Virus record (IMG/VR): IMGVR_UViG_3300040781_000079
Span: 1-26,228 of that record
DNA length: 26,228 nt
Reading direction: 5' to 3' (one strand)
From: a virus
The notes under the pieces were generated by a model that saw only the letters and a program-made list of their open reading frames with translations, did no database searches and was not told the origin of the DNA. This document shows, piece after piece, positions 25 through 25,424 of this stretch. Each line of letters begins with the position of its first letter. Positions within the stretch are counted from its first letter, which is position 1. The translations under genes and the position numbers were made by a program.

Positions 25-43
25 ATGGTTATTTATCGGTTTT
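25..43 (-). promoter_or_regulatory. Putative phage promoter P1 (GATAAATA family)
   Basis: On the minus strand the sequence AAAACCGATAAATAACCAT is identical over 19 bp to the site at 24892-24910. The GATAAATA core is at 37-30. It follows the stop of the last small gene (60-251) and points out of the window to the left, so it probably drives a gene that starts beyond position 1. The core resembles T4-type late promoters (TATAAATA). It could equally be the site for the single-subunit polymerase encoded at 783-2597. Promoter function is inferred from repetition and intergenic position. Confidence 0.6.
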
Positions 44-594: not shown

Positions 595-786
595 TTATGT
601 GCCCTGATATTCATGCCAATATGCTTGTAGAAACTTGATGTTACGTTCATACTCACGGACTTCAGGATCATTGCTGAGCTTCTGTTGTGCTCGGTCCACA
701 GGATGCTGGCTGCGCCATGCTGTTACTTGCATCAGAGCAGTCAGGGCACGTTGCCTGTCTCTTATGGGTTGGTAACTCAGTGTCAC
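595..786 (-). CDS. Small phage protein, paralogue of the 60-251 product
   Basis: A 63-residue charged, probably helical protein of unknown function. It shares the pattern [VL]DR-x-Q-x-KL-x-N, then Y-x4-[KE]FL, with the 63-residue product at 60-251, so the pair arose by duplication. Its start codon overlaps the stop of the polymerase gene (ATGA, 783-786). This is typical of translational coupling and suggests the protein is made together with the polymerase. A role as a polymerase accessory or regulator is a guess from position only. Confidence 0.75.
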   Translation of the reverse strand: MTLSYQPIRDRQRALTALMQVTAWRSQHPVDRAQQKLSNDPEVREYERNIKFLQAYWHEYQGT

Positions 787-2597
787 TCTGCACCGTCCAT
801 GTAATCGTCATAGTCTTGTTGTTGCTGGTCTTGGCTGGGTTCAGACATGAATCTTGCTTGTCTTATATCCAGTATCTTGCGCACCATGTCGCCATACTGT
901 TCGTCTTCCAGGATCACACCACGCATTTTAGGGTGACGTTGATAATCATCTGCCAACTGGTATGCCTTGGGATCAGTGATTTCCTCACAGTCTTGGTCAG
1001 TGCTGTATCTGCTCTGGTATCCAGTCTCTTGTGCCTTTTGCAGCATCTCATCATTTAGTCTCTTGAGTTCATCACGGTTTTGTTGTTCAGTTTGTGCTGC
1101 ACGTTCTGCTACTGCTTTGTCAAACCAGGCTTTGTGATGTTTTTCCTCGTAACGTATCCAGGGTGATATTTGCTGGGCATCATGGTTGAGTGCGTCTACA
1201 CATATGGGTGTTTTGCTATACACAGCATCGTGGACTCTGAGCATGATCTCTGCGTTGGGGTGTTTGCTCAACACAGTGTCCATGATCATGGTTTCAGCAT
1301 TCTGATACAGGAAAGCCAGATACTTCTTCTTGCTAAATCTTCCTGTGCCATATCCACGCTCAGTGTCGTTGCGCAGTTCACGGCGTTGCTTGAGTTCAGG
1401 GTCAATGTCCTGAGTCACAGCGTCTGCCAGAGCCTTGATGTCGTTCATGAGATCTGTAATAAACCCCTGACTCAGGAATATCTCTCTGTCCTCTTTGTTG
1501 TAGATCACATCAGCGATTGCGTTGTTGATCCAGGTGTTTTTCTCTTTGTCCCAACGACCGGTGCTTTTGTTGGCACCAAATCCAATTGCCGTGATGGCTT
1601 GCTTGACAATCTTGATCTTGGCTGACATGGGCAGGTTGGTGTTGGTCATTTGCTCTGCCAGATGCTCTCGTATTTCCTGCTTCATTTCATTATACGCCGT
1701 AAAGCTATCAGCCTTGACACCACGATCGTTTGCTAAATGGGCATACACACTAAACACACACGCACTGATGTCATACTCATGACAGTTGCCCAATGCTGCT
1801 ACACGGACTTCACTGCGCACGTTCTGGAGACTGAATCCTGTGTTGTAGATACGACCAAAGAAATCGCTCTCCCCTGTAAACTGAACCAGGAAGTCTGTAT
1901 AGTAGTCTTTTTTACTATCTGGGATATACTGACTCAACTGGCGATTTGTTTCCTTGACCAACGCCTGGATGGATCTGGCTTGCGCAAGCTGCGTGAGCAT
2001 CATTTGTGATCTCTTGCTGTGCATGCTGGACTGCTCCAGTATTTCTGCTTGCACTGTGTTGATGTAGGCTTGCAGGCTGCGCATATCCACTGGCACGAAT
2101 TCCATGGTGAGTTCACCCTCTAGTGCTTTTTCCACGCTATGCCCGTGTGTTTCCTGGAAAAACTTCTCCGTGTCTTCCAGTCTGATGTTGATTAAGTCCA
2201 TGATGTCTACTCCTTGTGGTAATATGCCTGATTTTAGATTTGTTAGGTTGCTGCCTTTTTCAACCACCCGAATGATACTTGCTTGGTTGTCTGTTATCCA
2301 CTGCGACCATTTTGTGCGTGTGCCCGGAATTTGCGCTTGTATACTTGAGTTGAGTTTGCTTACACTGATATACCAGAGCATGAGATTCTTTTTTCTGGCG
2401 TTGTTCTCAGCATTGACTTTTAAGTCTTGTGGGCGATGGTAGATCAGATAGTCAAACAGTAGTTTGCTGGCGTGATCCACATATGAAGTGGCTATGGCCT
2501 GGTAACTCAACTGTCTGTTGTTGGTGCGGTGTTCTGCTTGGTGGTTTTGCATGCGCTGTTGTAGCGCGGTGATTAGATCTTGGCGAGTTGTTTTCAT
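783..2597 (-). CDS. Divergent, shortened single-subunit (T7-type) polymerase
   Basis: This 604-residue protein carries the ordered motifs of the single-subunit RNA polymerase / family A polymerase fold. They are DFFGRIY (245-251, the DxxGR motif; T7 has DWRGRVY), motif A YDISACVF (D276), motif B KQAITAIGFG (K332 with F340-G341 at the same spacing as T7 K631 and Y639-G640), and motif C RVHDAVY (H456-D457). Residues 1-240 are mostly helical and unrecognised. A charged, Gln-rich tail of about 145 residues follows motif C. The inter-motif distances (27, 56 and 125 residues) are shorter than in the 883-residue T7 enzyme. The positions matching T7 G542 and Y639, which select ribose, appear as V281 and F340. 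AAGGA lies about 10 nt before the ATG. An atypical DNA polymerase or an inactive derivative is possible. Confidence 0.75.
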   Translation of the reverse strand: MKTTRQDLITALQQRMQNHQAEHRTNNRQLSYQAIATSYVDHASKLLFDYLIYHRPQDLKVNAENNARKKNLMLWYISVSKLNSSIQAQIPGTRTKWSQWITDNQASIIRVVEKGSNLTNLKSGILPQGVDIMDLINIRLEDTEKFFQETHGHSVEKALEGELTMEFVPVDMRSLQAYINTVQAEILEQSSMHSKRSQMMLTQLAQARSIQALVKETNRQLSQYIPDSKKDYYTDFLVQFTGESDFFGRIYNTGFSLQNVRSEVRVAALGNCHEYDISACVFSVYAHLANDRGVKADSFTAYNEMKQEIREHLAEQMTNTNLPMSAKIKIVKQAITAIGFGANKSTGRWDKEKNTWINNAIADVIYNKEDREIFLSQGFITDLMNDIKALADAVTQDIDPELKQRRELRNDTERGYGTGRFSKKKYLAFLYQNAETMIMDTVLSKHPNAEIMLRVHDAVYSKTPICVDALNHDAQQISPWIRYEEKHHKAWFDKAVAERAAQTEQQNRDELKRLNDEMLQKAQETGYQSRYSTDQDCEEITDPKAYQLADDYQRHPKMRGVILEDEQYGDMVRKILDIRQARFMSEPSQDQQQQDYDDYMDGAE

Positions 2598-2758: not shown

Positions 2759-2766
2759 TATTTATC
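2759..2766 (-). promoter_or_regulatory. Putative phage promoter P2 upstream of the polymerase gene
   Basis: GATAAATA on the minus strand, 162 bp before the ATG of the polymerase gene (2597), in a non-coding region. It is one of the recurring cores in this window and lies just upstream of the 23-bp inverted repeat. If it is used, the polymerase mRNA has a leader of about 150 nt that includes the whole hairpin. If the enzyme recognises this core, expression would be autogenous. This is inference from motif recurrence. Confidence 0.5.
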
Positions 2767-3168: not shown

Positions 3169-3489
3169 TTACATGAAGTTTTCTGTGTATACCTTGTGTA
3201 GAGTATTGTAATCCACTGTGTCACTTATGCGCACCACACTGTCTGCGTTGACAATCCGACCTTTCAGTCTCATGTTGCCCACGATGATCACTGCCCGGTG
3301 CACGTCTTTGGTCAACTCACGTATGATGGGTTCCCAGATACGGAAGTTGCCATAACTTTCTGTTGCGTAAGTGGTCAACATTCGGCCGTTGTCACCATCA
3401 ATCATGGTCAATTCCCAGTAGTAGTCTGTGTTACGCTTGCTCCACTTGCGGTCTGCTTTGATTACCACTGCTTGTTTTACTGAGTCCAT
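3169..3489 (-). CDS. Hypothetical beta-rich small protein
   Basis: A 106-residue protein of unknown function. Alternating hydrophobic and polar residues (YYWELTMIDGDNGR, HRAVIIVGNMRLKGRIV, SVVRISDTVDY) suggest a small beta-barrel, possibly an OB-like fold, but I cannot assign a family. GGAGG lies 9 nt before the ATG at 3489. The start overlaps the end of the upstream gene (3477-3860) by 13 bp, and transcription ends at the terminator directly downstream. Its link to a helix-turn-helix repeat protein suggests nucleic-acid-related or regulatory work. That is inference. Confidence 0.75.
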   Translation of the reverse strand: MDSVKQAVVIKADRKWSKRNTDYYWELTMIDGDNGRMLTTYATESYGNFRIWEPIIRELTKDVHRAVIIVGNMRLKGRIVNADSVVRISDTVDYNTLHKVYTENFM

Positions 3490-4355: not shown

Positions 4356-4380
4356 TCCTGCTTTATACAGGATATTTATC
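4356..4380 (-). promoter_or_regulatory. Putative promoter P4 with hairpin masking the ribosome binding site
   Basis: GATAAATA (4380-4373, minus strand) is followed immediately by TCCTG (4372-4368), a 7-nt loop and CAGGA (4360-4356). The second arm contains most of the AGGAG ribosome binding site (4359-4355) for the ATG at 4348. If transcribed, the short stem would hide the site. Whether the first arm is in the RNA depends on the true start point. Confidence 0.5.
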
Positions 4381-4874: not shown

Positions 4875-4915
4875 TTGGTTCCCTTCTTTTTCTTGCCTTT
4901 CTTTTTGTAAGCCAT
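4871..4915 (-). CDS. 14-residue lysine-rich microprotein
   Basis: The reading frame encodes MAYKKKGKKKKGTK, with 8 lysines in 14 residues. Its ATG (4915-4913) overlaps the TAA of the LamG gene as TAATG. Its TGA (4873-4871) overlaps the ATG of the next gene. GGGAG lies 7 nt before the ATG. Without it a gap of about 40 bp would break an otherwise gap-free operon. Very basic short peptides of this kind could bind nucleic acid or membranes. Function is unknown. Confidence 0.6.
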   Translation of the reverse strand: MAYKKKGKKKKGTK

Positions 4916-10841: not shown

Positions 10842-10888
10842 ACCACAACATCCTGAGGGCTTGCTGTGGTGGCTTATAGGTATTTATC
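10842..10888 (-). promoter_or_regulatory. Putative promoter P5 with leader hairpin for the fibre operon
   Basis: CCGATAAATA on the minus strand (core 10888-10881) stands 58 bp before the ATG at 10823. ACCACAGCA (10870-10862) pairs with TGTTGTGGT (10850-10842) around an 11-nt loop, a 9-bp stem with one G-U pair. It begins 10 nt past the core, so an RNA starting 6-7 nt past the core would carry the whole hairpin near its 5' end. The ribosome binding site lies downstream, outside the stem. Confidence 0.55.
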
Positions 10889-10922: not shown

Positions 10923-11509
10923 TAATAGTCATCCCACGAAATAGCCTCTACTTCTGCTATGGTGTTCGCACTATTGATGTCGTCCCGGATGGTTCTGGCT
11001 TGAACGTGCACATTGTTGACGTGACTGATAACTGCGGCACTCAGACCAAATATGCCCAGTTGATCCAGGGTGACAGTGCTGTTGTCTGCTATGGTCCACT
11101 CAAGACTTATGTTGGCATCCAGAGTTGCTGCTGTGTAAGCTCCCTGAATACGGCGCTGACTGTCTGCATCTGCATCATATACATCACCGTTGAAGGTTAC
11201 TTCACCAAACTCTTCTTGATCACGACGGAACTTGATTTCCTGCCACTTGACAGTTTGTGCTTGTGCCAGTGTTATAGTCCAGGACTCCGAGGTGTTGTCC
11301 CACACATAATCATTACTTGGACGAACAGGATACTCAACTGCTACACCATCCTTAATATAGTGTGTGGTGGCAGTCACGTTTGCGCCCACCGTGAGTGTGT
11401 TGAATGTGGTGGCATCAATATCCACTTGCACACTGTCAGTATCTCCTGAACGGATACCTGTTATTTGCCCGTTGTTGTCATAGAACGCAACTCTGATTCT
11501 TGTGGTCAT
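10922..11509 (-). CDS. DUF4376-like tail fibre-associated protein
   Basis: A 195-residue protein whose C-terminal half fits the DUF4376 pattern: KWQEIKFRRDQEEFGEVTFN, then YDADADSQRRIQGAY, SLEWTIADNSTVTLDQL, and the closing helix with HVQARTIRDDI and EAISWDDY. DUF4376 domains occur in phage tail fibre or tail-assembly proteins, usually near the distal tail genes, as here. The N-terminal half is a beta-rich region that begins with a VAFYDNNGQITGIRSGD motif. The start overlaps the stop of the J-like gene (ATGA). Exact function is unknown. Confidence 0.8.
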   Translation of the reverse strand: MTTRIRVAFYDNNGQITGIRSGDTDSVQVDIDATTFNTLTVGANVTATTHYIKDGVAVEYPVRPSNDYVWDNTSESWTITLAQAQTVKWQEIKFRRDQEEFGEVTFNGDVYDADADSQRRIQGAYTAATLDANISLEWTIADNSTVTLDQLGIFGLSAAVISHVNNVHVQARTIRDDINSANTIAEVEAISWDDY

Positions 11510-14500
11510 TTTTTAGTTCCCAATCCTGTAAGGTTATATTCATATATGGGTGCTGCACTACCCACAGCTTTGCGAGCCCGGAGTGTTACTGTTACTGGGC
11601 TTGTTAGTGCCCCTGTTATCTCAGCGAACACTGGAAGCGTGTAAGTTTGTGCTGCTTCAAACATGGCTATTTGCACTTCCTGAATGTCAATGCTGCCTTT
11701 GTTGGTGGTCAAGGTGGCGTAGGCATACTGGTTATCTGCTATGCCTCGGGCACTCACACTGCCCTGGATGGTTATGGCACTGGGTGCTTCACCTGTCCAG
11801 CTAAAGCTCAGGGTTGTAACTGTTTGTCCAGCACTGCCTGCCGTGGTGCCATTTAGTGTGCCACTCACACTCTGGGGGATGGTCACTGCTTGATCCTGGA
11901 TTTTCAGAGTGCTTACCTGGGCATCACCAATTGATGCTTCCAGGATGACTGCATCACCCACTTGTGCACTGCTGGTAATCAGTTCACCCACACCCAGTTC
12001 ATTGGCTGTGATCTGGTTGGCACCAATCTGGTTGGCAGTAATGGTGTTGGCTGCCAAGCGATCACCTGTTATGCTGCCTGCTTGTATCTGTGTTGCAGTG
12101 ATGGTGCCTGTGGCAATCTCGTTTGCTGTTACCTGGTTTGCACCAATCTTGTCAGTAGTGATGGCACCACTTGTGATTTTAGCCGCTGTTACTGCACCTG
12201 TCTGTATCTTGGTTGCTGTGATGGCGTTAGTGGCAATCTTGCTGGCTGTTATCTGTCCTGCCAGGATGTTGTTGGCTCTTACTGCATCAGTTGCCAGTTC
12301 ACGGGTGGTGATGCTGTTGGCATTAATGGTTATGGCATTGAACACATTGGCATCAATCTTGTCAGCCGTGATGGTTCCTGTGGCAATCTCTGCTGCTGTG
12401 ATGGTGCCAGCCTGTATCTGTTGCGCTGTGATGGTTCCTGCCGCTATTTGCAGGGCTGTTACCTGATTGGCTGCTATCTTGGCTGTGGTAATTGCACCAT
12501 CTGTTATCTGTGTTGTGGTGATGGGGAAACTGTTGGTTAGTTCAGTATCCAGCGCATCCAGATTGCTTTGTAGGTCAGGCAACGTCACAGTATTCAGAGT
12601 GGTGATGGCATTCTGTGTGTCGGATATGTTGCTGTCCAATCCTGGGATGGTCACAGTGTTCAGAGTGGTGATGGCATTTTCAGCATCATCAAGATCACCT
12701 TGAAGTGCTGGCAGTGTCACAGTCTCCAGAGTGTTGATGTCGTTCTCTGCATTGGCAAGATCAGCGTTGAGATTGGGTATGGTAACTGTTTCCAGTGTGT
12801 TGACATTGGATGTGAGTGCTGTCAACTCTGTGTCCAGATTGGCCAGATCCAGTTCCAGGTTGGCTAAATCACCATCCAATACATTCAGGTTGGCTGCTGT
12901 GTTGTTCAACTTGTCCTGTAGTGGAGTGTCTAGTTTCACCTCACCAATTGTGCCATCAGGAATGTCTGTGCCTGGGTCCACCATGTTTTGTGGGTTGATG
13001 CCGAACGTGCCAGTTATATACTTCAGGCTGGCTACACCTGTAAAGGTGTCCTCCATGCTTATTTCCATGCGGAACTGTGTGTTAGCACTGAAGTCATAGG
13101 TGTCAATCACGAATATGAATGGCTGTGCATCTGTGAAGTAACTGCCACTGTCCACACTTGTTGTGGGTGCTTGAGTGTAAACCACAGGTGCCACGGTGTT
13201 GCTTGACTCGTTAATCAACACAACTTTTGCCAGATTGAATGTGGTGCCAATACTGGGTGTTATGGGGATGGCGATGAACACGCTGTCATCACTGAACACA
13301 CTGCCATAATCGTCACGAGCATCGGCTATGGGCAGAGTGCCAATAACTGCACCTGAACTTGGGCTGTGCACGTTGGCTGTGGTGCCTGTGGGATCATCCA
13401 CAACCACCACGTTACCCACTTGTGGTGTGGTCATTCCGTTAATGGCCCACCAGTTGCTCACACCTGAGTCCAATACAGGCAGGTCTTCCTGGGTTATGAT
13501 GTCACCGTAGACATCGTCATCATACTGTAACAGGGCGAACTTCATGGTTATGGCACCATCAGCATCCTCCTGCTCTTCTGTTCGCATCACACGGAACAGT
13601 GTTTCGTTAAATCCATATAGTGCACTTGTCAACTTGACTACATCACCCACGTCTATAACCATGCTGCTGAAGTCTGCTGACAACTCCACCACGGTGCTGA
13701 TGCGGCTCTGGTTCAGGTCAATGTTAGCCAGTTGTGCCACTCGAGTTTTGTCGTTAACCATGTCCAGGCGATAGTTCAACACATTGTCTGGCTCGTTGGG
13801 GTTGCGGATTGCTGCGCCTACCTCAGCATAGTAGACATCTGTCTGATCTCGCTGGTTCACACTGGCATACTCTACCTCCAGTCCGTTATACAGGCTGAAC
13901 AGTTCTGTGCTTGTGATGGCCAGGCTGCTTACTATGTTGTGGTCTGTGAACTCATAAGCAGCATCTTTCTCTGCTTGGGTTGCTTGACGGTTGACAACCA
14001 CACCGAACTGTCCTGTCTTGTTGTTAAAGGTAAACCAGCATCCTGCTGCTTGACAGATCTTGTTGATGTTGGCTTTGGCTGTGTCAAACATGCTCAGGGC
14101 ACCATCCACCTGATAACGGTTGTGCTGCTGTGTGGTGTTGCTGGCATCCAGATAGTCAACTTGTTGGTTGGCATAACCTGCCAGTGCTGTCAAGCTCACA
14201 CTGTCCACTTGATCGGAACTCAATCCTGCACCGTATCTGTCGTTAGTCAGGTAATCCAATAGCACATTGGCTGGATCATTCAGGCTGTTGCTCAAATCGA
14301 ATGTGATGGCACCCAGGCCTGTTAACTGTTCCTCTGGCTCATAATCAAGCTCCACTATGGCGAACACCAGGTCTTCCATGGTGTTGGCGGAAGTCCAGTT
14401 GTTGAACACACTATATGCTGCCTGTGCTGTGCCAGTGCTTGGGAAGATCTGGTTGCTGGCTTCACTGCCGCCTGCATAAACACGCACACGCATTTTGCCA

Positions 14501-14952
14501 TCCACTCTGGTGGTGCTGGTTGAGTTGGGATCATCAAATCTGGCCAGGATGTGTGGTTGTGCTGGTTGGAACACCAACTTGCTGTCACCACGGTAGATGT
14601 CATTTACTGTCCAGACATCATTGTCGTTATACTCGGATATAACGATACAATATGCCATGGTTTTGTTGCTGTTTTTAATTTCAGCATCCGTGATGATACC
14701 ACCAGTGTAGTTGCGTCCATACATTCTGGGCACTTTGTTGTCTGTGCCTGGTGGTAATTGAATCTTGACACCTGGGTCACGCCCATTAGCATCAGGTGGA
14801 TCAAATACACCCAAGAGTTTTGCTGTTGCGGCACCCAAGCCTGTAGCGACAACACCCACTGCTATGTTGAACAGGGTTACACTGCCTGCGATTGTGCCTG
14901 CTGTGGCAATGGCTCCAACTATGGATCCAGCGATTGCGGTGAATACGGCCAT
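11506..14952 (-). CDS. J-like tail tip / host-specificity protein
   Basis: A 1148-residue tail tip protein. Residues 5-47 are a Gly/Ala-rich hydrophobic segment. Residues about 60-490 contain the tail-hub core of lambda gpJ-type proteins (VPRMYGRNYTGG, DLSNSLNDPANVLLDYLTND, the WFTFNNKTGQFGVV region). Residues about 500-660 are beta-rich. At 680-805 there are four copies of a 23-residue coiled-coil repeat ending TxxTVT[IL]P. At 815-1000 a run of ten-residue ITAxxIxAGT repeats gives a beta-helical or trimeric shaft. A terminal domain closes the protein (1030-1148). It probably forms the tail tip that recognises the host, with the fibre proteins attached. The order of genes after the tape measure fits lambda-like phages. 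Confidence 0.88.
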   Translation of the reverse strand: MAVFTAIAGSIVGAIATAGTIAGSVTLFNIAVGVVATGLGAATAKLLGVFDPPDANGRDPGVKIQLPPGTDNKVPRMYGRNYTGGIITDAEIKNSNKTMAYCIVISEYNDNDVWTVNDIYRGDSKLVFQPAQPHILARFDDPNSTSTTRVDGKMRVRVYAGGSEASNQIFPSTGTAQAAYSVFNNWTSANTMEDLVFAIVELDYEPEEQLTGLGAITFDLSNSLNDPANVLLDYLTNDRYGAGLSSDQVDSVSLTALAGYANQQVDYLDASNTTQQHNRYQVDGALSMFDTAKANINKICQAAGCWFTFNNKTGQFGVVVNRQATQAEKDAAYEFTDHNIVSSLAITSTELFSLYNGLEVEYASVNQRDQTDVYYAEVGAAIRNPNEPDNVLNYRLDMVNDKTRVAQLANIDLNQSRISTVVELSADFSSMVIDVGDVVKLTSALYGFNETLFRVMRTEEQEDADGAITMKFALLQYDDDVYGDIITQEDLPVLDSGVSNWWAINGMTTPQVGNVVVVDDPTGTTANVHSPSSGAVIGTLPIADARDDYGSVFSDDSVFIAIPITPSIGTTFNLAKVVLINESSNTVAPVVYTQAPTTSVDSGSYFTDAQPFIFVIDTYDFSANTQFRMEISMEDTFTGVASLKYITGTFGINPQNMVDPGTDIPDGTIGEVKLDTPLQDKLNNTAANLNVLDGDLANLELDLANLDTELTALTSNVNTLETVTIPNLNADLANAENDINTLETVTLPALQGDLDDAENAITTLNTVTIPGLDSNISDTQNAITTLNTVTLPDLQSNLDALDTELTNSFPITTTQITDGAITTAKIAANQVTALQIAAGTITAQQIQAGTITAAEIATGTITADKIDANVFNAITINANSITTRELATDAVRANNILAGQITASKIATNAITATKIQTGAVTAAKITSGAITTDKIGANQVTANEIATGTITATQIQAGSITGDRLAANTITANQIGANQITANELGVGELITSSAQVGDAVILEASIGDAQVSTLKIQDQAVTIPQSVSGTLNGTTAGSAGQTVTTLSFSWTGEAPSAITIQGSVSARGIADNQYAYATLTTNKGSIDIQEVQIAMFEAAQTYTLPVFAEITGALTSPVTVTLRARKAVGSAAPIYEYNLTGLGTKK

Positions 14953-14953
14953 G

Positions 14954-15415
14954 TTATTTTATCCCTGTCTTGATATAGTTTGTTTCAACCGGCGTCCAGC
15001 CTCTGCCCACCAGGTCTATGGCAGGTGAGTTGGCCAGCATGGTCATGGTGTAACCCTGAATCTTTTTGTTGACAATCAGCATCTTGGCTCTCTTGCAGTA
15101 TTCACGGAACAGTCTGGCACCTGCTGTGGTGTCACGATACTCAGGCTTGACCCACCATGCCATCTCTTGCAAAGTTTGTCGATGTGGCATCCAGACATCA
15201 GGAACTATTTGTGCTATAAGCATGCCTGCTAGTTCATGACCTGAGTCTGCTACCAACACGTATCCCGATTTCTGAATGTTCAACAGGGTGCGGTTCACAT
15301 GGTCTGGATCATGGTCTGCGTTGCTGTGCACTGTGGTGGGTGTGGCGTTGCCGAACTCCACCAGCATGCGGGTTACTTCATGATAGTCTGTAAATGTTGC
15401 GTTTCTGATCTTCAT
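14954..15415 (-). CDS. GNAT-family N-acetyltransferase within the tail operon
   Basis: A 153-residue protein with the GNAT fold outline. The N-terminal MKIRNATFTDYHEVTRML is a typical first strand and helix. GYVLVADSGHELAGMLIAQI is the central hairpin. WWVKPEYRDTTAGARLFREY (about 87-106) is the acetyl-CoA-binding segment, with a modified R/Q-x-x-G-x-G/A loop (DTTAGA). The end is a short terminal strand. GNAT genes are found in tail operons of several siphophages, and the substrate is unknown. Start and stop are tightly coupled to the neighbouring tail genes, so it is a resident gene rather than a recent insertion. Confidence 0.8.
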   Translation of the reverse strand: MKIRNATFTDYHEVTRMLVEFGNATPTTVHSNADHDPDHVNRTLLNIQKSGYVLVADSGHELAGMLIAQIVPDVWMPHRQTLQEMAWWVKPEYRDTTAGARLFREYCKRAKMLIVNKKIQGYTMTMLANSPAIDLVGRGWTPVETNYIKTGIK

Positions 15416-16053
15416 CGTAGTTGTGACAGGCGCCCAGCTCGGCCACCGCCACCTCCTCCATATCCGGTTCCACCACTAAACTCTCGTCCGAAGTCGAAGG
15501 TGGTGTTCTGCAAATCTTTTACTCTGTCGAAACTGATATCGTCTGGATAGAACTCACGTCTGTCTGTGCCGTTGGTTCTCTGTCCACGAACTCTGTTCTC
15601 CAATACTGTGTTGATGCTTGCACAGGTGATCCCAATGTTGTTCACCAGGTCACCTGACAGGAAATCTGTTTCCTCACTGATGCTGAAGTTGGTGATCACA
15701 CCAGTGTAACGCAAATAACTGTTGGCTACCTCCAGCGTGTCCTTGTCGAAAAACACTCTGCGTATCTTGATTGTGCCGCCTTTGATCTGTGTGCCCAGGA
15801 CTTGATCCATGTAGTTCTGGTTGCTGGGGATGCCACTCAGGGCCACCTGGATATCGCCGTTAGTGGTGCGGATATCGTCTTGCAGACTGCTCACACTCAA
15901 CAGACTGCCTTGCTCTGTGTAAACATTGCCTTCCAGTTCAATGGGTCCATATGCTGTGCTGATGTAGTATACGTTGCCATCCAGATCCAAATCAATAAAC
16001 ACTGCGCTGGATATGGATACTGTGTCAACTACTTCTGGTATCATGGTGCTCAT
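15412..16053 (-). CDS. Tail protein upstream of the tail tip
   Basis: A 213-residue beta-rich protein. The core (IDLDLDGNVYYISTAYGPIE, EQGSLLSVSSLQDDI, IQVALSGIPSNQNYMDQVLG, KIRRVFFDKDT) matches the style of distal tail or tail-assembly proteins that precede gpJ in marine siphoviruses. The C-terminus is Gly-rich and basic (YGGGGGGRAGR), perhaps an assembly tail. Its start overlaps the gene before it (ATGA) and its stop overlaps the GNAT gene. A more precise family name is not justified from inspection. Confidence 0.7.
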   Translation of the reverse strand: MSTMIPEVVDTVSISSAVFIDLDLDGNVYYISTAYGPIELEGNVYTEQGSLLSVSSLQDDIRTTNGDIQVALSGIPSNQNYMDQVLGTQIKGGTIKIRRVFFDKDTLEVANSYLRYTGVITNFSISEETDFLSGDLVNNIGITCASINTVLENRVRGQRTNGTDRREFYPDDISFDRVKDLQNTTFDFGREFSGGTGYGGGGGGRAGRLSQLR

Positions 16054-16712
16054 GGGCCAATCACCTCTGCGAACACGAAATCGCCACTAAACTCCAATCT
16101 GTCATAGGGCACCACATTGTATGAAGGACGGTTGGTCATGACCACACGCCAGGTGACTTCTGGGCCCACGAATATACCGTTGCCTGCCAGAGTGTATGCT
16201 GGCTGTGTGATAAAGGGTCGGTTGATGGGCACATTGACTGTGGTGCCGGTGCCGCGTGTTACTTGTTCAGTTACTGTGTAAGGATACAGATAGTTGCCTG
16301 CTGGCTGGATATAGTCACCTGGCTCAAACACAATATCCGAACTCACATCACCTGCCACCAGGCTCATGTTTGCAACTATCGTGGTTGCATTTGCACTGTC
16401 TATGGTGATCTGATCCAGTTGGTTGCCTGACAATGTGCCCTGATAGTCAGTGATGTAACTCAAGCCGGGGTTGCTGCCACCAATGTTGATGACTTGTGTC
16501 TCCACACGGTCCACTCTGTCCAGTTCTTCTACCAGTGCACGGTTGGTTGAATATTTCAATCCAGGATGCATGGTAACACTCATGACCCAGGGCACCTGGT
16601 TGGCCACACTGCTGATGCGGATCTCGCCACTACGGCTCACTGTCTGTCCTGATAGTTTTTTGCGCTCTATCCGGATGCTCATGGCGTTGTCAATTATGGT
16701 TTGTAAACTCAT
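16050..16712 (-). CDS. Tail protein directly downstream of the tape measure
   Basis: A 220-residue protein, mostly beta. It has an ERKKLSGQTVSRSGEIRISS segment near the N-terminus, an acidic mid-section with a TQVINIGGSNPGLSYI motif, and a C-terminal YDRLEFSGDFVFAEVIGP. Position right after the tape measure gene matches distal tail or minor tail proteins (lambda M/L region). I cannot identify the exact equivalent. The gene is coupled to the next by a 4-bp overlap. Confidence 0.7.
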   Translation of the reverse strand: MSLQTIIDNAMSIRIERKKLSGQTVSRSGEIRISSVANQVPWVMSVTMHPGLKYSTNRALVEELDRVDRVETQVINIGGSNPGLSYITDYQGTLSGNQLDQITIDSANATTIVANMSLVAGDVSSDIVFEPGDYIQPAGNYLYPYTVTEQVTRGTGTTVNVPINRPFITQPAYTLAGNGIFVGPEVTWRVVMTNRPSYNVVPYDRLEFSGDFVFAEVIGP

Positions 16713-16718
16713 GTTTTA

Positions 16719-18602
16719 TTACCTTGGTTGTCTTCTGGCGCCTTGCTGTGTTACTGCATACAGGAACTCAGGATCTCTTGCCAACAGTTGTTGGAAACTT
16801 CTGGCATCAGTTGCGTTGATGTTGTATGTGACGTTGGTTGTTCCACCACCAGCACCCATGCCCATGGCTTCATTGGGTATGATGGTGCCTGATCCTCTGG
16901 GCATGAACAGTTCTGGGCCACGCTCACCCACAATGTAAGGCTTGTTTGCACCAACTGGGCCACCGTCTGCTCGGAAACCCAGCATACCCAACCCTTTCTG
17001 TAGTAGTCCAGTTGTTCCGCCACCCACTGCGCTAGGGCCACCACCAAACAGTGCCAGGAACATCTTGTTTGCTTGGAGTTTCACGAACTCAGTGATGAGT
17101 GTGCGGAACAGGTCCTTGAAGGATAGTTTTCCTGTTTCCACGAAGTTCATGATGCTGTCAGTAAAGCTGTTACTCATTTTACCGAACAGATTCTCACCGA
17201 AGTTTGTCATGTCTGTGACGTTTTTCTTGAAGTTATCGGTGGCATTTGCCCAGCCATCTGTGAACTCTTGTGAGCTACTCTTTTGGTTAGTTTCCTCGCT
17301 CTTGCCCAGGGTAGTGTCGTCAGTGATAACACCGGCTGTTTCTTGTGCCACTTTCTTGGCTTGCTCAGTTTGAGCCATGGCTTCATCAACCAGTGCCATG
17401 ACGTTGCGCACTGCACCTTCCAGAGGGCCAATTGCTGCTATCTGGGTGTCATCAGTAAAGAAGTCCATGATGCTTGATAACTTATCCTTGACTTTTTCTG
17501 GTGTGAGTTCACCATAGTCCACATTGTTGATGAGATCAATATCCACACCTGGAATTCTGTTGACTTGCTCGATGGCTCCATTCAGGATGTCAATAGCACC
17601 GTTTGCCACATTTTCAATCATGTTGAGCGCTTTGTTGGCTATCTCTACAATGAAGTCGAATGCACCGATGATCAAACCCACCAATAACTTACCTCTGCCG
17701 CCCAGCATCATGAAGCCTAGTAGACCCAAGGCCTTGAGTTCAGGTGGCAGGGCGTTAAAGAACTTGACGATGTTGTTCACGCCTTTAATAGCCACGTTGA
17801 ACACAGGTGTCATGATGTCTGCCAATGCTGCGAATCCAATTAATAAGCCACGGATGCTGTTAAACAGGTTTTCACCTAGTTGTGCTGCCAGTTCGCCAAT
17901 GCTGCTGCTTGATGCATCAAATCGCTCTATAATAGCATTAATGGATGCAGTGATTCTGGGGTTGAATGCTTCAGCGAATGCTGTATTCAGGTTGAACAGT
18001 CTGTCACTCAACTGACTCAAGGCACCTGTTAGGGTGGTGTTGAGCTGATCCGCGGCTCCTTTGTTGGCAGCGGCGAACTCCAGTAACTTGCGTTGTGTTT
18101 CCTCTACACTATAACTGACACCTGCCTCAAATCCAGCCATGGCCAATACACCACGCTCACGGAACAGGTCTGCGGCACCAGCACCGGCACTGAATGCTCT
18201 TTGCATTTGTAGTGCTGTGGTCTGGAAGTCCAGTCCTGCGATTGTGGCTATGTCGGCTACTGCTTGAAGGTTGTTTTCCAGATCACCAAACGTGTCCGAT
18301 ATAGGCACGATGCTACTCAAACCATTTGCTATTTCATCAAGACTGAATGGCAACTTGGTTGCTGCTTCTCGAGCAAGATCCAATGCGCGAGCACCACGCT
18401 CAGCATCACCAGCTAGGAAGTTCAGGCGGATACGAAGATCTTCAACACTGCGCCCTGCTTGGACTGCTTTGTTGAGTCCTGCTATAGCACCCACTGCCGC
18501 GACGATCTTGGTGGCGAATCCTGCGAGACTTCTGCCTGCGTTGCCTAATCCTCTTTCAAACTGTCTGCTGTCTAACCCTAGCGCCATGGATATATCTGCC
18601 AC
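16719..18602 (-). CDS. Tail tape measure protein
   Basis: A 627-residue protein that starts at a GTG (18602) with AAGGAG 7 nt upstream. It is helical and Ala-rich through residue 250. The middle (about 245-345) is hydrophobic, with LLGFMMLGGRGKLLVGLIIG. The C-terminus has the lambda-type tape measure signature FRADGGPVGANKPYIVGERG (543-562), then GSGTIIPNEAM. It sets tail length and is scaffolded by the chaperone pair encoded upstream. By the usual 0.15 nm per residue rule the tail would be roughly 90-95 nm. Confidence 0.92.
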   Translation of the reverse strand: MADISMALGLDSRQFERGLGNAGRSLAGFATKIVAAVGAIAGLNKAVQAGRSVEDLRIRLNFLAGDAERGARALDLAREAATKLPFSLDEIANGLSSIVPISDTFGDLENNLQAVADIATIAGLDFQTTALQMQRAFSAGAGAADLFRERGVLAMAGFEAGVSYSVEETQRKLLEFAAANKGAADQLNTTLTGALSQLSDRLFNLNTAFAEAFNPRITASINAIIERFDASSSSIGELAAQLGENLFNSIRGLLIGFAALADIMTPVFNVAIKGVNNIVKFFNALPPELKALGLLGFMMLGGRGKLLVGLIIGAFDFIVEIANKALNMIENVANGAIDILNGAIEQVNRIPGVDIDLINNVDYGELTPEKVKDKLSSIMDFFTDDTQIAAIGPLEGAVRNVMALVDEAMAQTEQAKKVAQETAGVITDDTTLGKSEETNQKSSSQEFTDGWANATDNFKKNVTDMTNFGENLFGKMSNSFTDSIMNFVETGKLSFKDLFRTLITEFVKLQANKMFLALFGGGPSAVGGGTTGLLQKGLGMLGFRADGGPVGANKPYIVGERGPELFMPRGSGTIIPNEAMGMGAGGGTTNVTYNINATDARSFQQLLARDPEFLYAVTQQGARRQPR

Positions 18603-18612
18603 GGTGATCTCC

Positions 18613-18972
18613 TTATATTCGGTCTATTTTGATAGCCAATTTCTTTGCGTATTTGCCCAAGGCATCCCGTGTGGGCTTACTCATGCCATCTGGTGCCTGT
18701 CTACTCCATCCTGTATCCAATCTCTGAGCATATGGATAGTTTGCGTGTATCTGTTGCTTTTGTGACTTTAATTTAGTTCTGCGTCGAGCGTTACCACTCT
18801 TAATGGGTGTTTCTTTCACGAACACCTTGTGTGCTTGACGGATGATATGATCAGGAACTTTTTCCAGTTCATCGAACTTTTTGCGGGCACCTGCACGAAC
18901 TGTCACACGAGCACCGCGTCCACCTGCTCTGGTTAGACTTGCTAATCCTCTTGCTAATACTCCTAATGCCAT
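18613..18972 (-). CDS. HK97 gp10-like tail/neck protein
   Basis: A 119-residue, strongly basic protein. The pattern KSGNARRRTKLKSQKQQIHA, then NYPYAQRLDTGWSRQAPDGM, matches HK97 gp10-like proteins, where the YA-x-x-L-[ED]-G-x-S-x-QAP-x-GM element is typical. Such proteins act in head-tail joining or tail completion. Here it lies between the tail chaperones and the tape measure, not before the major tail gene where gp10 homologues are often found. AAGGA precedes the ATG. Confidence 0.75.
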   Translation of the reverse strand: MALGVLARGLASLTRAGGRGARVTVRAGARKKFDELEKVPDHIIRQAHKVFVKETPIKSGNARRRTKLKSQKQQIHANYPYAQRLDTGWSRQAPDGMSKPTRDALGKYAKKLAIKIDRI

Positions 18973-18973
18973 A

Positions 18974-19219
18974 CTATTCCTTTTTCACTGACTCCAATGC
19001 TTGTTCCAGTTCTTCTTGGCGTATGTTGGGGGTCTTGTTTTCACGTTGATCCTCAACATATTTCCTGTAACTCAACACTGCATCATGAATCAATAGATCC
19101 TGTGTTGTAGCGGTTGCCAACACCTCACTGGGCAATTTGCCGAATGTCTCAGCCATGCTGTGGATCACCACCATCATGCCCAGTTCAGGTGAGTCGTCAC
19201 GAATCTCAGCATTTGTTAC
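18974..19219 (-). CDS. Tail assembly chaperone, T-domain read by -1 frameshift (GT)
   Basis: This frame is open from the slippery site (19219) and encodes 14 residues (VTNAEIRDDSPELG) before the first in-frame ATG (19177), then 67 more. The content (MAETFGKLPSEVLATATTQD, then VLSYRKYVEDQREN) fits the second domain of lambda GT-type chaperones. No ribosome binding site stands before the ATG at 19177. Fusion to the upstream G-like product by -1 frameshifting gives a protein of 179 residues that would recruit the tail tube protein to the tape measure. Confidence 0.8.
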   Translation of the reverse strand, partial: VTNAEIRDDSPELGMMVVIHSMAETFGKLPSEVLATATTQDLLIHDAVLSYRKYVEDQRENKTPNIRQEELEQALESVKKE

Positions 19220-19512
19220 TTTCCCAGTGTTTCAGTTACCTTGTTCATGGCCATGAGCATAACATCTGCTGGTAGCGTCATGCCGTCCTTGCACACAGGG
19301 TTAGCGTCTTTGTCCAGGATTGCTTCTTCCATGAACGCGACAATTTTTCCGTATTCTGTTTCCTTTGCTGTAGCCAGTTCCACGAATCTATCCAGTGGCT
19401 GACGATCCCAGACGTAGAAGTCCAAGCTGTCACCGTATTTCTCAGTGATCTCTTTTTCATTAAGAGTTATTTTTACTAGTTGTGGCTTTGCTGCCAGTTG
19501 AGTGATTTCCAT
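19216..19512 (-). CDS. Tail assembly chaperone (G-like)
   Basis: A 98-residue protein (MEITQLAAKPQLVKITLNEK, then DFYVWDRQPLDRFVELATAK) with the composition and position of lambda gpG-type chaperones, between the major tail protein and the tape measure. TTGGAG is well placed before the ATG. The last codons are CTG GGA AAG TAA and contain the heptamer GGGAAAG in the correct phase for a -1 slip, giving the longer GT product. The G form usually coats the tape measure during tail assembly and is absent from virions. Confidence 0.85.
   Translation of the reverse strand: MEITQLAAKPQLVKITLNEKEITEKYGDSLDFYVWDRQPLDRFVELATAKETEYGKIVAFMEEAILDKDANPVCKDGMTLPADVMLMAMNKVTETLGK
19219..19225 (-). promoter_or_regulatory. 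-1 programmed ribosomal frameshift site GGGAAAG
   Basis: On the minus strand G GGA AAG is in the zero frame and is followed directly by the TAA stop. It is the same heptamer used in lambda G/GT. The -1 frame is open from here to the end of the T-domain at 18974. Confidence 0.85.
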
Positions 19513-19513
19513 T

Positions 19514-19690
19514 TTAGTTCTCCAATTCTCGTTTCTTCATTTCCTGTATCGCGGTTGCCGCGAACTTCAGGCGGTTTTGCGCTTTTTCTGTATCCCGTCT
19601 TGCACAGGATATTTCATTGTTTGCTTTGGCAATCTCTGCCTCAAGCGTCTGGATGATCTCCAGGTCCTTCTTGTGACTCCATATCTGCAC
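19514..19690 (-). CDS. Small coiled-coil protein in the tail operon
   Basis: A 58-residue protein if it starts at the GTG at 19690, which has AGGAG six nt upstream. A TTG at 19705 would add five residues. The sequence is a single charged helix with heptad spacing (KKDLEIIQTLEAEIAKANNE, then AQNRLKFAATAIQEMKKREL). It overlaps the end of the preceding gene by about 50 bp in another frame. It sits two bases before the G-like chaperone gene and may assist tail assembly. Function unknown. Confidence 0.6.
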   Translation of the reverse strand: MQIWSHKKDLEIIQTLEAEIAKANNEISCARRDTEKAQNRLKFAATAIQEMKKRELEN

Positions 19691-19877
19691 GGTGCTCTCC
19701 TGCAAGTTCTATATCCATTTGGGCCAAGATAGGCGTAACATCAGTTTCCACACCATCCAGTGTGATTACTGGTGTGCCCTCATGATTGTATTTACCTGTC
19801 CATGTAATCACACCTGTTGTAGGGCATGATTCTGTCCTGTCTTGGATAATACGATTTATTTTGGGTGTTATCTTCAT
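19641..19877 (-). CDS. Small protein of unknown function after the major tail gene
   Basis: A 78-residue acidic protein. CPTTGVITWTGKYNHEGTPV (18-37) recalls the first part of phage HNH endonucleases (TGCW-x-WTG...GYG), but no HNH motif follows, so this could be a remnant or a chance likeness. The C-terminus (EHRADMESQEGPGDHPDA) is disordered and acidic. GGAG lies 7 nt before the ATG. It is separated from the major tail gene by a stable hairpin (19900-19917). Confidence 0.6.
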   Translation of the reverse strand: MKITPKINRIIQDRTESCPTTGVITWTGKYNHEGTPVITLDGVETDVTPILAQMDIELAGEHRADMESQEGPGDHPDA

Positions 19878-19899
19878 GTCATACTCCAGTGGTAGAACA

Positions 19900-19917
19900 C
19901 CGGGAGTTGCCTCCCGG
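19900..19917 (-). terminator. Stable hairpin after the major tail protein gene
   Basis: Minus strand CCGGGAG (19917-19911), GCAA tetraloop (GNRA type), CTCCCGG (19906-19900). It lies 14 bp after the stop of the major tail protein gene and is followed by TGTTCTACC, not a strong U-tract. It probably stabilises or partly terminates the mRNA of highly expressed upstream genes, lowering expression of the chaperone genes. Confidence 0.65.
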
Positions 19918-19931
19918 GTCTTGTGTAGTTT

Positions 19932-20414
19932 TTAGGCTACGGTGCCGCTGACGTAGTTACCCACGACTTCGATTGTCACAGGTGATACCCACACTGGTGA
20001 GTCAGGGTTAACTGTGGGTGCAAGAGCACTCAGATAACCTGATCCTTCAATGTAGTTGTCGCCTGAACTTGAACCTTCCCAATACATGCGGAAATATACA
20101 AGCTCTTTGTCGTTGGTGATATCGAAGATGCCTGCTGTTGAGCCTTCTCCTGTAAAGAACGTAGTAGGATCCAACACCATGGTCATGTTGACACTGTTGG
20201 TGCTTGGAGTGGTTACCACAAACTCAGATAGGGCGTCCAGCTGCTTCCATCGGAACAATCCAGGTGTAGCGTTTACAGTGATTTCCTGTAGTGCAGGAAC
20301 ACTCATAACGTTGGCTGTATCGGCCATGGCAGCATTGGCATCTGCGAAGGTTCCACTGGCATTAATGTCCACTTGGACGAAGTTACCCGCTGTTGCGGTG
20401 TTAATAAAGGCCAT
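19932..20414 (-). CDS. Major tail tube protein
   Basis: A 160-residue protein that is mainly beta with Thr- and Ser-rich loops (MAFINTATAGNFVQVDINAS, TVNATPGLFRWKQLDAL, ELVYFRMYWEGSSSGDN, IEVVGNYVSGTVA). The length, the final strand and the position between the tail terminator-type gene and the chaperones fit a siphovirus tail tube subunit. AGGAGAG precedes the ATG. The hairpin just downstream fits a highly expressed gene. Confidence 0.82.
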   Translation of the reverse strand: MAFINTATAGNFVQVDINASGTFADANAAMADTANVMSVPALQEITVNATPGLFRWKQLDALSEFVVTTPSTNSVNMTMVLDPTTFFTGEGSTAGIFDITNDKELVYFRMYWEGSSSGDNYIEGSGYLSALAPTVNPDSPVWVSPVTIEVVGNYVSGTVA

Positions 20415-20426
20415 TTTGGTCTCTCC

Positions 20427-20822
20427 TTATTGGACCGCTGTGAACCCATACTCGAAGGTATAAGTCTTGCGGTCATCTTGGTTTTCACTGCTAGTGATCA
20501 ATTCTGTATCGAACTGATCAGGCACAATGGATCGCGCTGCGTTCATGGCACTTAATATGGCGGCCATGTCTGCAGGCTGATTTTTAGCATCCACGGTTAG
20601 ATACGCAAATACTGTGGTTGTCACTTGATAAACATCGTTACCATCAAGAGTGCGGTGCAACTGAACCACTTCAGTGTCTTCCTGGTCGAAATAAACAGTT
20701 CTCATGTTTTTCTCATATAACGGTGTTTCTCCCGTTATCCAGGGCAACTCTGAACTGGTCTTAACGCTGGTTGATGCCAGCGAAGTTGTCACCGCGTTCA
20801 ATAGGGTAGTGCGAATGCTCAT
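20427..20822 (-). CDS. Putative tail terminator / neck protein
   Basis: A 131-residue protein (MSIRTTLLNAVTTSLAS, then YLTVDAKNQPADMAAILSAM, TELITSSENQDDRKTYTFEY) with the alpha/beta pattern seen in tail terminator proteins (lambda gpU-like). The start overlaps the connector gene by 4 bp (ATGA). The position directly upstream of the major tail gene supports a tail terminator function, while the sequence match itself is only general. Confidence 0.65.
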   Translation of the reverse strand: MSIRTTLLNAVTTSLASTSVKTSSELPWITGETPLYEKNMRTVYFDQEDTEVVQLHRTLDGNDVYQVTTTVFAYLTVDAKNQPADMAAILSAMNAARSIVPDQFDTELITSSENQDDRKTYTFEYGFTAVQ

Positions 20823-21379
20823 CTGGTTCTCACCACACTTCTGCGTCCACGTGTGCGCCGGGTCCGACTAAACGTAACCTTGCGCTCGTCTAGATCAACG
20901 GCACCTGAGTCATCAAGATCATACCAATCCATCATGGCCAGCAACTCTTCGAACAGGTCTGTGAACTTGCTCTCGAAATACTGGATCTTCTGGACCTCGG
21001 AACTCTCAGGATTCCCGAAATCGGCTATCTTGGGGTATACATACTCTTTCAGAGTGTAGTATGCGCAGAGATCCGTGAAGTCACTCTGCCTGCCCAGGAT
21101 CAGATCAGGATTGAACTCTGGAATGTTGTTGATGGTGTTGTAACCACTATCAGTGTATCCCAGGTATCCTCTCCATTGACTGCTTGCCCGGATTTTCTGT
21201 GAAATTCTCTGGGTTGCTTTCGCTGCCAGATCCTCTACATACTCATCCAGGGTTGCAGGATTCTCCGGGGCATCCGAGAAGTTAATCTCGTTTGCCTCGA
21301 AGACTCTCTGGTCCTTGTCACGCACATCATCTGCTTCCGCATAGCTTGTGACGCTACCATTGACTGTAATGAATGCCAT
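20819..21379 (-). CDS. Head-tail connector (adaptor) protein
   Basis: A 186-residue protein, helical in the middle (LDEYVEDLAAKATQRISQKI, then FTDLCAYYTLKEYVYPKIAD and KIQYFESKFTDLFEELLAMM), with a basic C-terminal tail (TFSRTRRTRGRRSVVRTR). The length, the helical bundle and the location directly after the capsid gene suit the adaptor that docks on the portal (HK97 gp6 or SPP1 gp15 role). GGGAG precedes the ATG. The Arg-rich tail may contact DNA in the neck channel. Confidence 0.72.
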   Translation of the reverse strand: MAFITVNGSVTSYAEADDVRDKDQRVFEANEINFSDAPENPATLDEYVEDLAAKATQRISQKIRASSQWRGYLGYTDSGYNTINNIPEFNPDLILGRQSDFTDLCAYYTLKEYVYPKIADFGNPESSEVQKIQYFESKFTDLFEELLAMMDWYDLDDSGAVDLDERKVTFSRTRRTRGRRSVVRTR

Positions 21380-21394
21380 TAGCCAATACTCCCT

Positions 21395-22351
21395 TTAGAC
21401 TGAAGTCAGTCCGCTTGGAAGGTTGTTGCTACGCACAAAGCGGCAGCCGATTGCTTGTCCAATCATGCCGTCGATCAATGCCTGGTTACCCACCATGGAT
21501 AGGTCACCAATTGCACCAGTGCTCAAGCCGCCAATGCCGTTAAGTTCACGGGCAATGTGCAGTTCCTGTGCAGGTGTTACCACTGCTACGTAGAAACCAG
21601 CACCGTCAGTTGGAGCGTTCTGGGCGCGCAGGTTGGCTACTGCTGTGCTCACAAACTCCAGGCTGCAACGCAGGTTGGCGTCAGTTTCACCGATTGCATC
21701 ACTTGAAGCGATGGCACGGATGAAGTTGCTACGCACACGGGCGAAACCGTTACGCACTGTTGCAACCATTTCATAACGGTCACGATCTACGTCACGGTCC
21801 ATGGCAACACTTGGCTCACGCTTAACAGCATAAGCGCCTGCTTCTGGTGAAAACACCAGGGCAACGTCTGCACCTGCCAGTGCTGTGTTAGCTGCACCGT
21901 CGTTTGCGATGTCTACGTCAGCAAGATCAGTTAGTGCACCTTCTGCACCACTTGCCATAACGTTGAAGCCAGCCACGTCAGTTGCTTGCGCAATTGAACC
22001 AGATAGTTGACGCAGGACTGCCGAACGAACCATGTCCAGTCCGCCATCTTCCAGGGCTTCTTCGTTGACGTATGTTCCTGCACCACGCTTGCTGATGGTC
22101 AGTGGAACGTTTGTTGCTGTAAAGTCGCTAGTTGCTGCGCTGATGATGGCGTTGCCTTCACCCACAGTTGAACCAGCACCCCATGCATCGTGCACAGGAA
22201 TTTTTACCGTGTTACCCACCGCACCCACAAGGCTTTGTGTGTTAACGATGAGTTGAGAGTTGGGAAGCAAGACTGCATTATCGAAATAAGGAATCAGGTC
22301 TGCAACCACGTCTTCATAAAGCGCCTGTAGCGCTGAACTTGTAGTAGCCAT
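21395..22351 (-). CDS. Major capsid protein (HK97-type)
   Basis: A 318-residue protein. The layout fits HK97-fold capsid proteins: an N-terminal arm (MATTSSALQALYEDVVADLI), an E-loop-like region (GNTVKIPVHDAWGAGSTVGE, about 47-66), the spine helix (GGLDMVRSAVLRQLSGSIAQ, about 103-122), and a P-domain with strands such as GAGFYVAVVTPAQELHIARE. It lies between scaffold and connector genes. A strong AAAGGAG stands before the ATG. No protease gene is visible, so maturation probably relies on the separate scaffold. Confidence 0.85.
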   Translation of the reverse strand: MATTSSALQALYEDVVADLIPYFDNAVLLPNSQLIVNTQSLVGAVGNTVKIPVHDAWGAGSTVGEGNAIISAATSDFTATNVPLTISKRGAGTYVNEEALEDGGLDMVRSAVLRQLSGSIAQATDVAGFNVMASGAEGALTDLADVDIANDGAANTALAGADVALVFSPEAGAYAVKREPSVAMDRDVDRDRYEMVATVRNGFARVRSNFIRAIASSDAIGETDANLRCSLEFVSTAVANLRAQNAPTDGAGFYVAVVTPAQELHIARELNGIGGLSTGAIGDLSMVGNQALIDGMIGQAIGCRFVRSNNLPSGLTSV

Positions 22352-24822: not shown

Positions 24823-24910
24823 GTCCGCCTGCAGCCAGGATAATAATAAACCAGGACGAGGAAATCATGAGCTCCTGGGCTACTGGCGGACATGGTTATT
24901 TATCGGTTTT
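24823..24910 (-). promoter_or_regulatory. Putative promoter P6 and hairpin leader of the portal operon
   Basis: AAAACCGATAAATAACCAT (24910-24892, minus) is identical to the site at 43-25. Five bases after the core, GTCCGCC (24891-24885) pairs with GGCGGAC (24829-24823), and the stem continues past one mismatch as G-T-A-G-C-C with G-G-C-T-G-C. The leader from the predicted start to the portal ATG is about 95 nt and is dominated by this hairpin. The promoter lies over the last codons of the 24900-25172 gene. Confidence 0.6.
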
Positions 24911-25416: not shown

Positions 25417-25424
25417 TATTTATC
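25417..25424 (-). promoter_or_regulatory. Putative promoter P7 upstream of the 25169-25393 gene
   Basis: CGATAAATA on the minus strand (core 25424-25417), 23 bp before the ATG at 25393. It is followed at once by an imperfect inverted repeat (TCT-GA-CTG, AAA loop, CAG-G-AGA) whose second half contains the AGGAGA ribosome binding site, as at 4356-4380. Confidence 0.45.

Follow-up and report, generated by a model that had tools for sequence, protein, structure and literature searches.

A divergent TV-Pol-type polymerase in a lineage of small siphophages

The TV-Pol family was described by Iyer, Abhiman and Aravind in 2008 in transposons, the Microcystis phage Ma-LMM01 and Sputnik, and its core, which is minimal throughout the family, consists of a thumb, a hairpin arginine, a palm with two aspartates and HTH-like fingers with an RxxxK motif (PMC2579912). 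TV-Pols were predicted to have prim-pol activity, and in 2008 they were put forward as the minimal core from which DNA polymerase I and the T7-type RNA polymerases descend (PMC2579912). As of 2020, biochemistry was known for CCPol alone among the enzymes counted as TV-Pol, and CCPol is unusually close to Pol I (PMC7581432). CCPol-MP, whose catalytic subunit was the one so included, has proven primase-polymerase activity; it keeps both ribonucleotide-excluding residues, E174 (equivalent to E710) and F225 (equivalent to F762), and uses dNTPs only (PMC7581432). In the PolA-SSB primases, a small SSB partner gives de novo priming (PMC10061031).

We analyzed a 26,228-nt stretch of viral DNA (IMG/VR record IMGVR_UViG_3300040781_000079, positions 1 to 26,228), hereafter the window. 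On its minus strand, at 783..2597 including the stop codon, lies a gene for a 604-aa protein that we assign with high confidence to a divergent clade of TV-Pol, based on the ORF, its homologues, a structure model and Foldseek and VIA matches. The enzyme belongs to a known but neglected kind, and its clade is a divergent addition to TV-Pol. A first-pass annotation made from the sequence alone had described a minimal, divergent T7-type polymerase here; its ORF coordinates were correct, and D245-F-F-G248-R249, D276, K332, F340-G341 and H456-D457 were all found at the positions it gave. Single-sequence searches of Pfam, PHROGs, NCBIfam and the PDB with the window protein returned chance matches only, including those to an antibody and to Cas_Csn2.

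Relatives were nevertheless found by other routes. Searches with tblastn yielded one distant relative among phages (Desulfovibrio phage 7757, E 9e-6) and, among plasmids, two on small ones of Polaromonas (E 1e-5). The family was widened from these to a chromosomal protein of E. coli, to plasmids of cyanobacteria and to gp030 of phage Ma-LMM01. Jumbo phages of Dickeya, Erwinia and Vibrio also contributed hypothetical proteins (L027:5638-6852, L029:3164-4738 and L028:2945-4798, respectively), the Vibrio gene lying close to those for a Rep helicase and ribonuclease HI. In viral contigs, single-sequence and two-sequence scans found no relatives, whereas a degenerate DNA pattern for [S/F]GR.Y..G..LQN succeeded, pulling seven contigs of which six held true relatives (E about 1e-27 to 1e-31); the alignment scan that followed gave 16 loci. 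The gene was present in only two of 300 genomes searched from one bacterial order. Two PHROGs without assigned function, phrog_34692 and phrog_30690, matched the plasmid relatives but did not match the window protein directly. The cyanobacterial Rep families (CyRepX) are helicase-related and do not belong to this family.

Existing annotations of the relatives varied. The E. coli protein (L006:3320-4714, 465 aa) is annotated as 'hypothetical protein' and lies near an AlpA-type regulator gene; a relative of its type occurs in 590 of 5,426 complete E. coli genomes, ST131 strains among them, and is nearly always chromosomal. A Polaromonas plasmid relative (L004:6095-7600) carries the label of a Clp protease N-terminal domain protein, which seems to stem from a Pfam match that is weak and below the cut-off (E 0.0008). 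The Calothrix plasmid TV-Pol (L008:12455-13693, continuing over the record start; 574 aa) spans the start of a circular record, where the annotation does not show it as a single gene. A gene missed by Pfam, PHROGs and NCBIfam can now be named, one that has a relative in these E. coli genomes.

Conservation across the family supported the motifs. Among the 16 phage homologues, G248, R249, Y251, N259, R265, D276, K306, R310, K332, F340, G341, Q432, E435, H456 and D457 were invariant. In a wider set of 21 very divergent members, drawn from siphophages, jumbo phages, plasmids and E. coli islands, R249, D276, K332, E435 and D457 were retained in 21/21. Because of this invariance, the motifs are real and go beyond chance. 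On the minus strand of the window they comprise the G248-R249-x-Y...L-Q258-N259 module with a template-contacting Arg and a PolA-like LQN (1821..1856; Q258 in 20/21 and N259 in 19/21 members), the motif A catalytic Asp D276 (1770..1772), the motif B fingers helix K332...T336...F340-G341 (1575..1604), the Q432-x-x-E435 helix motif (1293..1304) and motif C H456-D457 (1227..1232; H456 in 20/21). The DxxGR motif of the first-pass annotation stood in part: G248 and R249 were conserved, but the Asp (D245) varied among relatives. The motif is therefore better written as [F/Y/S/G]-G-R-x-Y..G..LQN, which is nearer to the TGR...LQN of family A DNA polymerases than to the DxxGR of T7 RNA polymerase.

An iterated HMM built from the window clade gathered the plasmid, jumbo-phage, E. 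coli and Ma-LMM01 members, and the last member to join had an E-value of 1e-6 or better by the second pass. Ma-LMM01 gp030 scored E 0.0016 in the first pass and 1e-6 in the second, against a best value of 0.066 in 2000 shuffles; judging from its transposase neighbours, gp030 is probably the Ma-LMM01 member meant in the TV-Pol paper. Like the TV-Pol family, the window protein has a minimal core with the hairpin Arg (R249), two palm Asp (D276 and D457) and the fingers Lys (K332), each in 21/21 members, is found in viruses and mobile elements with no nuclease domain detected, and is tied to the family by profile and structural matches. The beta hairpin expected to carry R249 ahead of the palm was poorly modelled, and helices 172-188 and 195-216, which precede the Arg module in the model with moderate confidence, may correspond to the N-terminal antiparallel coiled-coil thumb of the family. 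Unlike the family as described, the window protein lacks the Arg of the fingers RxxxK (I328, with Arg in only 1/21 members). Ma-LMM01 gp030 itself has V at this position in the same alignment, so this Arg may not define the family. The clade further differs in that small tailed phages carry it as a resident core gene, and in the D5 helicase partner: a D5-like helicase (PF08706) was found neither in the window nor in six related contigs, which may be incomplete. Linkage to a D5 helicase is common, although not universal, among TV-Pols.

Similarity to canonical polymerases was faint at the sequence level. The bridging member L017 matched DNA_pol_A (PF00476) in register at E 0.0019, below the cut-off, the window protein had no PF00476 match, and similarity of the core HMM to canonical DNA and RNA polymerases did not rise above shuffles. 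With hhalign, the wide family aligned in register with four DNA polymerases at E 0.013 and with four RNA polymerases at E 0.68; since the accepted homologues RNA and DNA polymerase score only 0.63 against each other, this preference is a mere hint. When the phage clade was aligned by itself, the RNA polymerases came out ahead, in motif-poor alignments.

The fold was clearer. An AlphaFold2 model of the window protein from 16 sequences (pLDDT 70, pTM 0.66) placed its elements in the expected order: the D276 strand (272-277), the K332-bearing fingers helix (324-339), a long helix (423-444) that contains Q432 and E435, the H456-D457 hairpin (strands 451-455 and 458-461) and a final strand. In a Foldseek search of the PDB, the best 50 structures listed were all family A DNA polymerases (top E 1.7e-5), and the same was true of the best 50 PDB structures listed by VIA-align. 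Over model residues 159-490, VIA-align Z scores were 14.7 for Pol theta, 13.6 for T7 DNA polymerase and 13.5 for Klenow, with Z 13.1-14.7, rmsd 4.1-5.1 and about 275 residues in the best rows. T7 RNA polymerase was absent among the VIA-align rows listed, an absence compatible with similarity. Among the viral models of BFVD, the top matches were uncharacterised Caudovirales proteins (E 4.6e-24), and the best proteins of known kind were virophage TV-Pol proteins, namely the Zamilon virophage replication protein V6BPG7 (E 5e-7) and the Qinghai Lake virophage helicase/primase/polymerase (E 5.4e-5); virophage and other viral proteins mostly outranked canonical phage PolA. The palm-fold match anticipated by the first-pass annotation was thus obtained, with family A DNA polymerases as the structures matched. 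Its pairing of D276, K332 and D457 with T7 D537, K631 and D812 was checked at the level of alignment order and secondary structure only.

To place the active site, we compared four positions that separate DNA from RNA polymerases, using matched sets from T7, SP6, Syn5 and phiKMV (4 DNAPs, 4 RNAPs). At motif A +5, which is the steric-gate Glu position of family A (E710 in Klenow, E480 in T7 DNA polymerase, G542 in T7 RNA polymerase) and V281 in the window protein (1755..1757, minus strand), Glu was found in 4/4 DNAPs and Gly in 4/4 RNAPs; the phage clade had V/S/I and other members V/H/N/Q, with Glu in 0/21. The position four residues after the motif B Lys is Tyr or Phe in the DNAPs, Met in the RNAPs and Thr in the phage clade (T336). 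Three residues after the Q/H position, the 4 DNAPs have Gly, the 4 RNAPs Asp and the 21 family members an invariant Glu (E435). The residue following HD is Glu in 3/4 DNAPs, Ser or Cys in the RNAPs and A/S/C/G in the family (HD-A in the window). By sequence, the active site is mixed: three of the four positions lean towards RNA polymerases, while a DNA polymerase is suggested by the GR..LQN module and by how closely it precedes motif A. The window protein has V281 and T336 where CCPol has E174 and F225, and both ribonucleotide-excluding residues are missing from the clade. Without the steric-gate Glu, the window enzyme might accept both rNTPs and dNTPs for priming, whereas CCPol-MP accepts dNTPs only.

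Consistent with the siphovirus setting claimed earlier, the window contains portal, major capsid, tape measure and tail tip genes. The head-tail and tail module (11506..22351, minus strand) is syntenic with related contigs (clusters c2-c10), and the portal protein (23295..24797, minus strand; phrog_145, E 1.2e-43) shares cluster c13 with their portals. Related contigs of 29.6-35.5 kb have these clusters in the same order, with the polymerase flanked by the tail module on one side and the terminase-portal module on the other; it also occurs, among different neighbours, in two more contigs (29.5 and 36.4 kb). The 35.5 kb contig, which begins with a capsid gene and ends in a scaffold gene, probably represents a circularly permuted, near-complete genome. 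The polymerase is a core gene of a siphophage lineage of roughly 30-36 kb.

Models for DNA_pol_A, RNA_pol, DnaB, D5 and DnaG had no match in the window and six related contigs (29-36 kb), nor did sigma-70 region 2, a model that small divergent sigmas would escape; each model was recovered in control genomes or T7. The absence of replication genes covers PolA, T7-type RNAP, DnaB, DnaG and D5. As far as these genomes can be read from sequence, the clade lacks the ribonucleotide gate and resides in small tailed phages with no other detected polymerase, DnaG-type primase or DnaB-type helicase, and the TV-Pol-type enzyme is probably the only copying or transcribing enzyme of the window virus. In one related contig, an AAA+ protein with a Walker A motif GQPGVGKT lies upstream of the polymerase (L047:815-1717, minus strand) and is possibly a helicase loader or clamp-loader-like protein.

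We consider it probable, by analogy with CCPol-MP, that the protein is a minimal right-hand polymerase acting as a primase-polymerase in phage DNA replication. Fold, motifs, family, conservation and synteny come directly from the computation, and the role is what we infer. In the proposed mechanism, D276 and D457 would hold two metals, the K332 helix would serve as the fingers O-helix, and R249 with the LQN module would grip the template. The enzyme would initiate replication, perhaps with a small ssDNA-binding partner, and the host replisome may then take over. This role is supported by the invariant catalytic residues, the family A fold, the prim-pol prediction for TV-Pols and the activity of CCPol-MP, as well as by the lack of DNA_pol_A, RNA_pol, DnaB, D5 and DnaG matches in the six contigs and by relatives found on plasmids or, in the case of phage GR7B, close to ribonuclease HI and Rep helicase genes. 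Desulfovibrio phage 7757, in which a DnaB helicase was present and DnaG and PolA were not detected, also supports it. Counted against it are the helicase partner, not found here whereas classical TV-Pols pair with D5 helicases, the missing RxxxK Arg, the three RNAP-like positions, a scattered promoter-like element, the canonical HMM comparison at shuffle level and four large phages that keep other replication enzymes. The three jumbo phages and Ma-LMM01 have PolA, DnaG-like and DnaB-like matches beside TV-Pol (the DnaB match of Ma-LMM01 is weak), and TV-Pol there is thus an extra enzyme, not the main replicase or sole primase.

Like CCPol-MP of staphylococcal cassettes and the PolA-SSB primases, the window protein is a stand-alone A-family core on a mobile element (PMC7581432, PMC10061031), although its operon has no helicase, unlike that of CCPol-MP. 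A small OB-fold partner, as in those systems, is possible on weak evidence. Upstream of the polymerase, a 106-aa protein (3169..3489, minus strand) was modelled with an OB-like topology in the order b1-b2-b3-a-b4-b5 (pLDDT 68), and its best PDB matches were mostly OB proteins (the SSBs Rim1 and hSSB1, and RPA), all weak with Z at most 5.4. Among related phages, only L037 has a similar gene. The protein is a candidate ssDNA-binding partner of the polymerase, and is offered as a lead only.

The strongest competing explanation, though an unlikely one, is a single-subunit RNA polymerase of TV-Pol descent, T7 RNAP-like in action and of another family, that would transcribe the phage genes from GATAAATA/CATAAATAC promoters. 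The missing steric-gate Glu, the acidic E435 at Q432+3 and a small residue (A/S/C/G, not E) after HD favour it, as do the promoter-like elements and the lack of a detected sigma-70 region 2 protein. The window contains six copies of GATAAATA against 0.33 expected, a number reached in 0/100 shuffles, and all six are on the sense strand and intergenic: at 2759..2766, 162 nt upstream of the polymerase start, at 24897..24904, upstream of the portal gene, and at 30..37, 4373..4380, 10881..10888 and 25417..25424 (all minus strand). In related contigs, an element of similar sequence (consensus near CATAAATACATTAT) is mostly found 25-150 nt ahead of genes. Counted over the window plus four of these contigs, ATAAATA occurred 37 times in sense against 6 in antisense, with 32 of the 37 in non-coding DNA. 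From its sequence and placement, GATAAATA is possibly a phage promoter. However, no long T7-like shared promoter was present (best 18-mer in 3/16 intergenic regions, against 8/11 in T7), and the elements resemble the T4 late promoter, TATAAATA. T4 late promoters are read by the host RNA polymerase with a phage sigma, and a small divergent sigma would be missed by the sigma-70 model; GATAAATA might be read in this way, with an unseen sigma, or by TV-Pol itself. Transcription is also disfavoured by the position of the gene with late genes, by the finding that the studied relative CCPol makes DNA (PMC7581432), and by the consequence that the lineage would be left without any detected phage replication enzyme. 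In a variant that we regard as rather doubtful, a promoter-reading TV-Pol RNA polymerase at GATAAATA/CATAAATAC would perhaps prime replication as well, and would represent a surviving link from DNA polymerase I to the T7-type RNA polymerases. The active site and the promoter-like elements together make the long-standing DNA-or-RNA question for TV-Pols testable, and the answer would reveal the way in which a single enzyme serves a small phage in replication or transcription.

It is improbable that the protein is a DNA polymerase that depends on existing primers, serves gap filling, repair or recombination and takes no part in priming. The family A fold, the retention of PolA, DnaG-like and DnaB-like matches beside TV-Pol in the four large phages and the ribonuclease HI gene near the GR7B relative are consistent with such an enzyme; it fits poorly with a sole detected polymerase in small siphophages that has neither a nuclease domain nor the steric gate. 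In common with family A DNA polymerases (Klenow, T7 gp5, Pol theta), the window protein has the fold of residues 159-490, GR..LQN and motifs A, B and C, and it differs from them in that no exonuclease was found, the steric-gate Glu and the Glu after HD are lacking and the Pfam model is negative.

We regard as very improbable the reading of the first-pass annotation, a T7-type RNA polymerase shortened by the loss of insertions. The window protein does share with T7-type enzymes the superfamily, a non-Glu residue at the gate, an acidic residue at Q/H+3 and a small residue after the motif C HD, and its short motif spacings were confirmed: R249-D276, D276-K332 and K332-D457 are 27, 56 and 125 residues apart, compared with 112, 94 and 181 in T7 RNA polymerase (R425, D537, K631, D812). 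It is, however, much shorter, the DxxGR Asp is unconserved, and the T7-type model PF00940, which detected T7 (E 9.9e-110) and Syn5 (E 4.2e-77) as positive controls, had no match in the window or six related contigs; the nearest folds listed are family A DNA polymerases in the PDB and virophage TV-Pols among viral models. A loss of insertions is not called for, as the TV-Pol core is already minimal across its own family (PMC2579912). What survives of that reading is a minimal, divergent palm-fold polymerase of the DNA polymerase I/T7 RNA polymerase superfamily, in a poorly described clade; 'T7-type' does not. A degraded, inactive remnant, which the very divergent sequence might suggest, is hardly credible given the invariant catalytic residues and the syntenic position across independent contigs.

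Several other genes of the window and its relatives were observed. Two small paralogue-like proteins downstream of the polymerase (60-251 and 595-786, minus strand) share the pattern D/VDR.Q.KL....Y......FL..Y..Y, and two related basic proteins of ~130 aa (3477-3860 and 3941-4348, minus strand), of no known family, have a common FWLH-NHPDY tail. In related contigs, a conserved 144-aa Dps-like DNA-binding protein follows the tail module (L046:6677-7108; phrog_3636, E 2.4e-26). A collagen-like tail protein of 1159 aa with GxQG repeats (6830-10309, minus strand) is adjoined in the window by two further large proteins of unassigned kind (4915-6497).
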